Source: Kiritimatiellia bacterium (GTDB lineage: Bacteria > Verrucomicrobiota > Kiritimatiellia > RFP12 > UBA1067). From it: a DNA stretch of 51,785 nucleotides. Positions within the stretch are counted from its first letter, which is position 1, and the number at the start of each line of letters is the position of its first letter. A program made the position numbers and the translations under genes. The stretch covers positions 1 to 51,785 of the forward strand of contig JAKSOZ010000010.1 in NCBI GenBank assembly GCA_024405265.1, in the 5' to 3' direction. The notes beneath the pieces were generated by a model. The model was given only the letters and a program-made list of their open reading frames with translations, had not been told where the DNA came from and ran no database searches. Below are positions 5,645 through 36,361 of this stretch, piece by piece.

Positions 5645-6327
5645 CGGCGCTCGTCCTTCACTAACTTACCGTCTTTCATCACAAGGCGACGCTTCGCATA
5701 CGCGGCGATGTCGTCTTCATGAGTGACCATAACGATCGTGATGCCCTCGTTCGAAAGCTCGGTAAAAAGCTGCATGATTTCAATCGAGCTCTTCGTGTCG
5801 AGGTTGCCGGTCGGTTCATCGGCGAAAAGAACGGGCGGCTCATTCATCAGCGCGCGAGCTATCGCGACGCGCTGCTGCTGTCCGCCCGACATCTGCGCGG
5901 GAGTATGCTTTATGCGACCGCCGAGGCCGACGCGCTTCAAAAGTTCGATCGCGCGTTTATGACGCTCCTTGCGCGAAAGGCGTCCCATATAGAGATCGGG
6001 AAGTTCGACCTGCTCAAGCGCGGTAGTGCGCGGAAGAAGATTGAAGTTCTGGAAAACGAAGCCGAGTTTCTTATTGCGAATGATCGCGAGCTCCTTACGC
6101 GAGCGACGCGCGACTTCTATGCCGTCGAGAAGATACGAACCTTCGCTCGGCGTATCGAGACAGCCGAGGATGTTGAGCATCGTCGACTTACCCGAACCCG
6201 ACGCACCCATAATCGCGACGAACTCCCCTTCGTCGATCGAAACCGAAACCCCGTCGAGAGCGTGGACCGGTTCCTCGCCCTGCGCGTAGATCTTCTTGAG
6301 ATCTCGGATTTCGATTAAGTGACTCAC
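5641..6327 (-). CDS. MacB/LolD-type ABC transporter ATPase
   Basis: 228 residues, one complete nucleotide-binding domain: Walker [11 protein letters not shown]-loop FVFQNFNLL, signature MSGGQQQR, Walker B VLFADEPT and the D-loop GNLDTKSS, then the switch histidine in MVTHE. In E. coli MacB this domain is fused to the permease; here they are separate, coupled genes. It energises the neighbouring permease on the cytoplasmic face. Confidence 0.95.
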
Positions 6328-34409: not shown

Positions 34410-34715
34410 CTACGCCGCGATCTTCTTCATCCTTCGATACCAAAAACCAGGTCTCCGGCGATGATGACGACATGCTAAAATAACGATATCATTTTCTCTT
34501 TCAAGAAAAACCAAAGAATACGGAAACGTTCCTAAATCCGCCTCACGCGTTTTCTTGTACTTCACAGGAAATATTTGCGGAGATTCTTCAATCAATACGC
34601 GTAGCTCATCAACTCGATTAACAAAACGCAACCCGAGACCGAGTTCTTCGGTCTCATAATATGTCGCCGCCTCGTCAATATCCTCCGCAGCGTCCTCGTG
34701 GAACCAAGACTTCAT
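34410..34715 (-). CDS. ParE/RelE-superfamily toxin
   Basis: 101 residues. ParE-type features: FHEDAAEDIDEAATYYETEELGLGLRFVNRVDE, P-x-I-F-P, LGTFPYSLVFL, and the C-terminal HHRRRPGFWYRR. Likely a gyrase- or ribosome-targeting toxin. Its ATG overlaps the antitoxin stop by 4 nt, the usual antitoxin-first order. Confidence 0.85.
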   Translation of the reverse strand: MKSWFHEDAAEDIDEAATYYETEELGLGLRFVNRVDELRVLIEESPQIFPVKYKKTREADLGTFPYSLVFLERENDIVILACRHHRRRPGFWYRRMKKIAA

Positions 34716-34864
34716 CGTGTGAATTTTTCTCTTAGCTTCTCCAAGGTGGAATCGGCAGGATATAGTTTTGCGGAGCCATCGGCAATGCCGCGAAGGCGAG
34801 AATCAATCTCGACTTCCCACGCCGCATTTACGCTCTCTTGGCTTTCTATAGCTATTAATTCCAT
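34712..34864 (-). CDS. Short antitoxin (addiction-module component type)
   Basis: 50 residues from the ATG at 34864: ESVNAAWEVEIDSRLRGIADGSAKLYPADSTLEKLREKF. The AWxxEIxxRLxxIxxGxxKLxP pattern is that of the Unstab_antitox family, but at 50 residues it lacks most of the usual N-terminal helix. Start supported by AGGA 6 nt upstream. A TTGCTATAAT box (TATAAT 34930-34925) is the promoter. Confidence 0.75.
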   Translation of the reverse strand: MELIAIESQESVNAAWEVEIDSRLRGIADGSAKLYPADSTLEKLREKFTR

Positions 34865-34924
34865 ATATATTCCTGTTTGGAAACTACAATGTGCCCGAAG
34901 AGTTGTTCCCCTCGAACTGAGAAC

Positions 34925-34935
34925 ATTATAGCAAA
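34925..34935 (-). promoter_or_regulatory. Promoter of the toxin-antitoxin pair
   Basis: TTTGCTATAAT on the minus strand, extended -10; leader of about 55 nt to the antitoxin ATG. Confidence 0.55.
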
Positions 34936-35063
34936 ACGCGAAAACTTCCGCAAGAGCTTTGGAAAAGATTCTTGGGCCGAACTTCTGCGGTTGCCGCAAG
35001 GCAACTGCGGTAAAATAAAACAATTCGCGACAACCCGAAGACCGCCGCGACTAAGGTTGCCCA

Positions 35064-35098: not shown

Positions 35099-35285
35099 AT
35101 CCATTGAGGTTAGGACGTTGGGCAGGGTTACGACCCTCGCGGTTCCCGTCAGAACCTCGATGTTGCTTATTTCATAGGAATATGCCTTAGTTGGCATCGA
35201 GGTAGGGCTTTCCCCATTTGTTCTAATGTGTCAAAATTACGAGACGGAAGGTCAGACCTTCTTTCCCATAATTTTGACACATCGC
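35099..35285 (+). ncRNA. Possible structured small RNA
   Basis: Downstream of the promoter at 35064 no open frame is seen, but stems can be drawn: GAGGTT (35106-35111) with AACCTC enclosing GACG/CGTC and the hairpin AGGGT-TACG-ACCCT; then ATGCC-TTAGTT-GGCAT, flanked by CGATG/CATCG. The 57-bp palindrome at 35226-35282 followed by CGCTTTTT could terminate it. I do not recognise the class; 4.5S and tmRNA hallmarks are absent. Confidence 0.4.
35226..35282. repeat. 57-bp palindrome, left of the RAYT gene
   Basis: Begins ATGTGTCAAAATTA and ends ATAATTTTGACACAT, with inner arms GAAGGTC/GACCTTC. It matches the reverse complement of 36305-36361 at 55 of 57 positions. CGCT follows both copies on the plus strand. 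Confidence 0.9.
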
Positions 35286-35306
35286 TTTTTCCCTCTCTTA
35301 ACGCGT

Positions 35307-36263
35307 TTACAACTCACCGATACAGCGATAAACCGAGCTTCGAGAGGCTCCCGTCGCTTCACAAATCGCCGCGCGACTCATACTCGGATTCTCCGCTAAT
35401 AATTGGCGAATCCTTTGTTTGAGACCTTCCTTTGAACTCGGCCTCCCCGCTGCCTTTCGAATCGATTTCTCTTCGACTATCGCCTTCGCGACTTCTTCGC
35501 GATGCGCAATCTCCTGCGCAACCATCGCCTCACTCGTCAAATGATCTACCGGCGCCGCTAATCCCGCCGCGCGCATATCCGCGATCTTACTCGCGCGCTC
35601 CTTCTTGATTCCGTCGAGACACTTCTCCATGAGTTCGCTATGCTCCGAAAGAATCTTCTCGACGGACATATTCTCGTAGATCATCCGCATTCCCGCGAGC
35701 GCGACTTCGTCCCCGCGCTTAAGCGCGTTGAAGCTGCTCCATAGATATCCCGTAAAGTCGGTCGTGATCGCGGCCTTAATCGGATTCAAGTGAATATAAG
35801 CCGCGCGTTTCGCGAGCTCTATCGGCTCTTCTTTAACGAGCACGTCTTTATAAACGCCCTCCCATAAAGTACCCGTATGCTGATATCGCGCGTTATACTC
35901 CTGTGTAAACCACTGCTTGAGTATTTTCATGAAACCGCCAACCGAGTACATCTGCTTTTTAAGGCGATCGATCTCTTCCTTGGAAACGGTACCGAGCTCC
36001 ATACCCTTCAAGATTCGATAGCGACGCCGAAGTTCGAGGTCATCGATTTCCACTCGCTCGGGAAGATACGCGAGGATATGAAAGTGATTCTCCATTATGC
36101 ACCAAGCGAGCAGCTTGAGGCCGGTGAATTCGGCAACGCGGCGCATCATTTCGATGAAGGAATCGCGTTCTTCGTTCTTCATGAAGAAGACTTTGTGGGC
36201 GATACGACTCATCAGGTGATGATAAGTCATCGGGACTTTTACTCGTTTATTAGAAGCTGACAT
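35307..36263 (-). CDS. REP-associated tyrosine transposase (RAYT) with C-terminal HTH
   Basis: 318 residues. Y1 transposase domain with HUH motif in IMENHFHILAYLP, then TGTLWEGVYKDVLV, and AAYIHLNPIKAAITTDFTGYLWSSF with a candidate catalytic tyrosine. A C-terminal extension ends KQRIRQLLAENPSMSRAAICEATGASRSSVYRCIGEL, a resolvase-like helix-turn-helix. RAYTs nick and join single strands at REP palindromes and are usually domesticated. The gene lies between two inverted 57-bp palindromes. The ATG (36263) is exactly 6 nt from a TGCTATAAT box, so the mRNA is probably leaderless; the frame extended to 36299 is not used. Confidence 0.9.
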   Translation of the reverse strand: MSASNKRVKVPMTYHHLMSRIAHKVFFMKNEERDSFIEMMRRVAEFTGLKLLAWCIMENHFHILAYLPERVEIDDLELRRRYRILKGMELGTVSKEEIDRLKKQMYSVGGFMKILKQWFTQEYNARYQHTGTLWEGVYKDVLVKEEPIELAKRAAYIHLNPIKAAITTDFTGYLWSSFNALKRGDEVALAGMRMIYENMSVEKILSEHSELMEKCLDGIKKERASKIADMRAAGLAAPVDHLTSEAMVAQEIAHREEVAKAIVEEKSIRKAAGRPSSKEGLKQRIRQLLAENPSMSRAAICEATGASRSSVYRCIGEL

Positions 36264-36269
36264 GAGAGA

Positions 36270-36280
36270 ATTATAGCATA
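36270..36280 (-). promoter_or_regulatory. Promoter of the RAYT gene
   Basis: TATGCTATAAT on the minus strand, TATAAT 36275-36270, 6 nt before the ATG. Confidence 0.6.
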
Positions 36281-36304
36281 ATCCGCCTAAAACATGCAAC
36301 TATA

Positions 36305-36361
36305 ATGTGTCAAAATTATAGGAAAGAAGGTCTGACCTTCCGTCTCATAATTTTGACACAT
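36305..36361. repeat. 57-bp palindrome, right of the RAYT gene
   Basis: Inverted copy of 35226-35282 (2 mismatches in 57). The inner segment is flipped relative to the left copy, while the flanks TA and CGCT are in the same orientation in both. Confidence 0.9.

Follow-up and report, generated by a model that had tools for sequence, protein, structure and literature searches.

The closest described counterparts of the element considered here are the TIRtrons, in which a RAYT-like gene (a TIRYT) is flanked by inverted repeats rather than by GTAG REPs (Di Nocera et al., 2013, PMC3733652). Some of the published TIRs are self-complementary, moderate repeat families are possible, and some of the repeats, not all, carry the motif GGGGWSAS (PMC3733652). 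Similar enzymes are found in TnpA_Y1 subclass 2.1, or RAYT group 1, which comprises long proteins with the class 2 Y---NP signature and a C-terminal helix-turn-helix (HTH); a 2018 survey searched the neighbourhood of subclass 2.1 genes both automatically and manually and reported no REP-like sequences there (PMC6006769). In REPtrons, such as those of E. coli and S. maltophilia, TnpA_REP is paired with GTAG REPs or REPINs that combine a fixed short recognition element with a variable stem. Each enzyme has one repeat family, the repeats are dispersed and non-autonomous, and the gene is usually present as a single copy (PMC8266576, PMC3116915). The IS200/IS605 insertion sequences, exemplified by IS608 and ISDra2, likewise have a HUH/Tyr Y1 domain and hairpins near their ends.

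The window analysed here, a contig of 51,785 nucleotides from a Kiritimatiellia bacterium, holds an element that resembles each of these systems in part. Its transposase has the C-terminal HTH extension of the TIRYTs and its gene has inverted-repeat flanks (matching at 55/57 positions), and this combination of an HTH-bearing protein with TIR-like flanks places it with TIRYT/TIRtrons and not with GTAG REPtrons (PMC3733652, PMC6006769). It differs from published TIRtrons in having full palindromes round an invariant GGTCWGACC, arms that are specific to the adjacent gene, and occupied and empty sites in relatives. Of the TIR motif GGGGWSAS, the last six bases are shared with the GGTCAG found here, whereas the GGGG start is missing, AAGGTCAG differing from the motif at its first two bases. 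In contrast to REPtrons, there is no conserved GTAG, the fixed element sits at the centre of the palindrome, the protein carries an extra HTH and copies are far fewer. We put the probability at roughly two in three that we are dealing with a TIRtron-like element, akin to REPtrons, whose palindromes would be mobile units processed by the cognate enzyme. The first-pass annotation had described a complete, possibly active REPtron; a RAYT-type transposase with cognate palindromes and an intact gene, HUH and Y---NP motifs included, is indeed present, but the classical GTAG type of REPtron is not what it represents.

The transposase gene and its flanking palindromes

Domain, family and homologue searches identify an intact gene for a RAYT/TIRYT-type HUH-Tyr transposase on the minus strand (35307..36263), which encodes 318 amino acids from an ATG at 36263, a start backed by the starts of homologues, to a stop at 35307. 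The Y1 transposase domain is matched by PF01797 (E 1.4e-7), and the best NCBIfam match is NF047646, REP_Tyr_transpos, at 54.7 bits (E 1e-14), below the curated cut-off of 80 bits. On the same strand, the HUH motif reads HFH (H61-F62-H63; 36078..36086) and the class 2 Y---NP signature reads YIHLNP (35781..35798), with Y157 as the presumed catalytic tyrosine (PMC6006769); residue numbers are those of the alignment, one above the numbering from the ATG, and both motifs are invariant among 12 aligned members of the subfamily described below. The C-terminal HTH (35325..35417, minus strand) was recognised by HTH_7 and other HTH models, which match residues 284-319 slightly under their Pfam cut-offs but are mutually consistent. 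It also appears in the predicted structure, which was computed without an alignment and has a mean pLDDT of 45, confident in the HTH only (about 86-93). Searching the PDB with the protein sequence returned weak matches to IS200-type transposases (E 0.4-0.8) or to HTH proteins. Remote matches to the transposase were all that a plasmid collection yielded, a further contig scan gave two remote matches only, and neither viral relatives of the transposase nor the window's arms in viral contigs were found. A 70-nt internal piece of the gene, 97% identical, stands alone on another contig of the same assembly (G000:C11, about 5740-5809; L076:1041-1110), with no palindrome found nearby.

As first annotated, the gene is bracketed by two 57-bp palindromes, recognised by self-complementarity, folding and alignment. 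The downstream one (35226..35282) has outer arms ATGTGTCAAAATTA...TAATTTTGACACAT and the centre GGTCAGACC at 35250..35258, and the upstream one (36305..36361) has the centre GGTCTGACC at 36329..36337. Each is self-complementary at 48/57 positions, and they are inverted copies of one another, agreeing at 55/57 positions as reverse complements and at 48/57 in direct orientation. Folded as single-strand DNA they reach -15.5 to -18.5 kcal/mol (z -6.8 to -8.3, with 0/200 shuffles as good), and the inverted match between the flanks of the gene scores 52, whereas shuffles reach 12 at most. A promoter-like TTGCAT-N18-TATAAT, seen by eye only, lies on the minus strand between the upstream palindrome and the ATG (36270..36299). 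Adjoining the element, at 34410-35008 on the minus strand, are genes for a ParE-type toxin and a putative addiction-module antitoxin.

Both palindromes are preceded by TA and followed by CGCT in direct orientation, as had been pointed out, yet this agreement covers 2 + 4 bases only and does not recur at a third copy of the palindrome (C54:59272-59328), where the flanks are GCGCG and CAAAAC. Agreement over four flank bases is too slight to bear an argument on mechanism. The accompanying proposal that AGCG, the complement of CGCT, forms the foot recognised by the enzyme did not survive a wider comparison, in which AGCG/CGCT fell within 32 nt of the centre in 4/36 palindromes beside subfamily genes, two of these being the window's own. 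The idea that flipped cores within direct flanks betray a special mechanism was also rejected: at another locus (L064) the two copies differ at the middle base while their arms keep their orientation, so that either A or T seems to be tolerated at the middle position.

A fixed centre and gene-specific arms

Members were collected by a protein search of 145 relatives and by profile searches of the family (115 genomes) and the order (162 genomes), which together delimit a subfamily of 19 members, the window's included, in 15 of the 162 genomes of the order. GGTCWGACC-centred palindromes adjoin the gene in all 19, and among these are four members from another genus that were found after the rule of the fixed centre had been noticed; at L034 the contig ends just past the gene, and at L189 the upstream palindrome is about 280 bp off. 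The first 15 members comprise the window gene and 14 homologues; leaving redundant ones aside, these homologues share 44-58% identity with the window protein. Mean identity among members is 0.62-0.63 for the Y1 domain and 0.28-0.33 for the HTH. In 93/93 well-paired sites the palindrome has A or T in the middle, a figure that is partly built in because the pattern used to retrieve most dispersed sites itself specified A/T there; likewise, the invariance of the centre at sites away from genes is in part a matter of ascertainment, since the centre was the search pattern, whereas the gene-flanking sites were found via the protein. A conserved GTRG beside the hairpins was sought and is not present in the subfamily, GTAGGTC occurring in some relatives only. 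A 41% identical homologue (L066; G032:C1:45700-50200) is accompanied by 28-nt inverted hairpins, GAACTAATGTATTTGATACATCAGTTCG, that have no GGTCWGACC centre. In L046 and L047, relatives more distant still, the inverted repeats are of the GGGGACAG and AGGGTCTGACCC type, as published for TIRYTs.

The arms go with the gene that they adjoin. At arm positions 7-10, upstream and downstream palindromes are identical at a level of 0.88 within a locus as against 0.36 between loci (14 loci, permutation p 0.0002). Three clearly distinct transposase genes within a single genome, G033, each have different arms. The same pairing extends to palindromes dispersed without a transposase: in 61/67 of them the arms are closer to those of a transposase from the genome that carries them than to the average over the remaining genomes, with 5.1/6 bases matched in the one case and 3.2/6 in the other. 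Clean copies with cognate arms stand in unrelated surroundings in G032 (four, of 54-55 bp) and in G083 (three, of 61-65 bp). The centre itself is associated with the gene: AGGTCWGACCT occurs at 90 sites in 11 genomes that have the gene, where the reversed control pattern occurs at 5, and at 138 sites in 134 genomes without it, where the control occurs at 114 (Mann-Whitney p 1.8e-7; within the genus p 2e-5). Sites in gene-less genomes are concentrated in G040, G061, G065, G012 and G010, and those in G012, G040 and G061, where the subfamily gene was not detected, perhaps stem from other RAYT types or from lost or unassembled genes. In G040 there are also tandem arrays (L126, L128, L129, L131, L132) of about 22-bp units, GGTCNGACCTTTTNNNNNAAAA with some CGTCAGAC variants, a BIME-like expansion of the centre.

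Which part of the protein might read which part of the DNA is a question on which the comparison of members gives a mixed answer. In a two-part code, the Y1 domain would read the invariant GGTCWGACC and the fast-evolving HTH would read the arms, separating transposases that share a genome. Among the first 15 members, arm similarity tracks HTH similarity with the Y1 domain controlled for (partial Mantel, partial r 0.42-0.52), and in two distant members GCAA arms accompany the helix motif VRTAY; once the set is extended to 19 members and scored position by position, any preference for the HTH is weak or absent, and we regard such a code as tentative and rather unlikely. A narrower version, which assigns the tetranucleotide at positions 7-10 of the arms to the HTH (VRTAY with GCAA, xMTY with C[CT]AC), was discarded, as a scan of the whole protein found no segment above permutation (maximum 0.18, p 0.95).

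Dispersed copies, occupied sites and empty sites

The window is contig C2 of an assembly, G000, of 1.71 Mb in 56 contigs that is 77% complete, and genome-wide counts rest on searches of it. The genome-wide count of the 57-bp palindrome that had been suggested gives, in this incomplete assembly, one further full copy, the gene-less one on C54, plus some half copies. A second set of palindromes in the assembly has the same centre and other arms, TTTTCCATAAAATACTGG... (C41, C26 and C53; L007, L009, L012, L013). A transposase cognate to the TTTTCCATAAAATACTGG arms was not found in the 77% complete assembly and may lie in its missing part. A third palindrome type occurs on C9. Palindromes or half palindromes also lie within a few hundred bases of the ends of contigs C54, C55, C24, C9 and C26, as if repeats or rearrangements broke the assembly at these points.

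Mobility was examined by joining the flanks of dispersed palindromes and searching for the joined sequence in relatives. One example comes from G054, where a palindrome with GCAA arms, cognate to that genome's own transposase, lies in frame within a glycosyltransferase gene (L241; G054:C18, about 54439-54479). The protein there reads FEK-HFCETLQCRSDLLCNVSDEG-RIDALYADIRF, where that of G025 reads FEE-NIDAVYADIRF; relative to a related genome, the palindrome adds close to 20 residues. The palindrome is missing at the matching place in G048, G027, G046 and G025, with different extra residues in G046 and a stretch that leaves the frame in G027. A further comparison concerns the 3' end of another orthologous gene, where palindromes are present in G054 and G044 and absent from G060 and G035; the two palindromes differ in their arms, and each resembles the arms of a transposase of the genome in which it lies. 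In G033 and G036, some palindromes coincide with synteny breaks relative to G012/G036. These comparisons support the mobility of such palindromes, although the empty sites are seen between species and in poorly conserved stretches, so that insertion points and target sequence are only approximate. For the window's own unit, the occupied/empty comparison that had been proposed came out negative, no empty site being found in relatives with the joined flanks. In the window's own genome, with a single further full copy in an incomplete assembly and no empty site found, the current activity envisaged in the first-pass annotation is no more than possible.

Probably mobile palindromes and competing explanations

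The likeliest explanation is that the palindromes move as non-autonomous repeats, with the cognate enzyme acting on them as single-strand hairpins. The steps of folding, recognition and tyrosine-mediated cleavage and joining are drawn from TnpA_REP and IS200/IS605 enzymes (PMC8266576, PMC6006769). A palindrome rendered single-stranded, as on an exposed lagging strand, would fold into a long hairpin with GGTCWGACC at its tip, and the enzyme would recognise this hairpin, cut it and rejoin it via the tyrosine, allowing transposase-less copies to land elsewhere. The fixed centre would probably serve as a common recognition or guide element, in a role like that of the GTAG foot of REPs, and the arms, being different for every transposase, would assign to each enzyme a repeat set of its own. 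The gene would for the most part remain in place.

The palindromes might instead be double-strand operators through which the HTH represses its own gene, other copies being regulatory or relics and the transposase domain being inactive on them. Such a role would suit the spacing of 38-39 nt that separates the upstream centre from the start codon at six other loci, the promoter-like sequence that adjoins the window's upstream palindrome, and the similarity between arms and HTH in the first 15 members (partial r 0.42-0.52). Moreover, many arms are imperfect inverted repeats, for example TTTCCAATATTTGGAAA (summed score 69 against 50.1 +/- 2.9 for shuffles, maximum 64), which fits the expectation for sites of HTH dimers. 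As a replacement for mobility this explanation is nonetheless improbable, because it leaves the downstream copy, the dispersed copies and the glycosyltransferase insertion unexplained, and the HTH preference faded with 19 members and position-wise scoring. An operator role is compatible with mobile palindromes, and both can hold.

It is very unlikely that palindrome, gene and palindrome travel together as an insertion sequence bounded by the two palindromes, despite the matching inverted ends about 1.1 kb apart and the TA and CGCT flank bases that are alike on both sides. No near-identical second copy of the gene is present in the 77% complete assembly, the three genes of G033 differ clearly and have different arms, and the IS200/IS605 family model NF033573 scores 13.2 bits on the window protein against a cut-off of 55 bits. 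Unlike IS200/IS605, the unit is not multicopy, and what is repeated is the gene-less palindrome instead of the gene. We consider it more improbable still that the palindromes exert their effect chiefly at the RNA level, terminating transcription in both directions or stabilising mRNA at the ends of genes, and were spread by ordinary duplication. Their strong folding, their frequent position right at gene ends and the TTTTT four bases beyond the left palindrome speak for this, but the right palindrome has no T run after it, the centre is fixed while arms change wholesale, and the arms are tied to the adjacent transposase. A search of the palindromes against Rfam gave no family at threshold, with matches at chance level only.

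Protein and flanks agree with what has been described for TIRYTs (PMC3733652) and subclass 2.1, with two departures: GGGGWSAS is not strictly kept, and repeated palindromes adjoin the gene in every subfamily member, which was not reported for the subclass in the 2018 survey (PMC6006769). For the question of how HTH-bearing RAYT/TIRYT enzymes choose their DNA, this lineage supplies natural pairs of enzyme and substrate, with one fixed centre, about a dozen arm sets that are each tied to a sequenced enzyme, and sites both occupied and empty. Such pairs make substrate recognition and any mobilisation of palindromes in trans directly testable.
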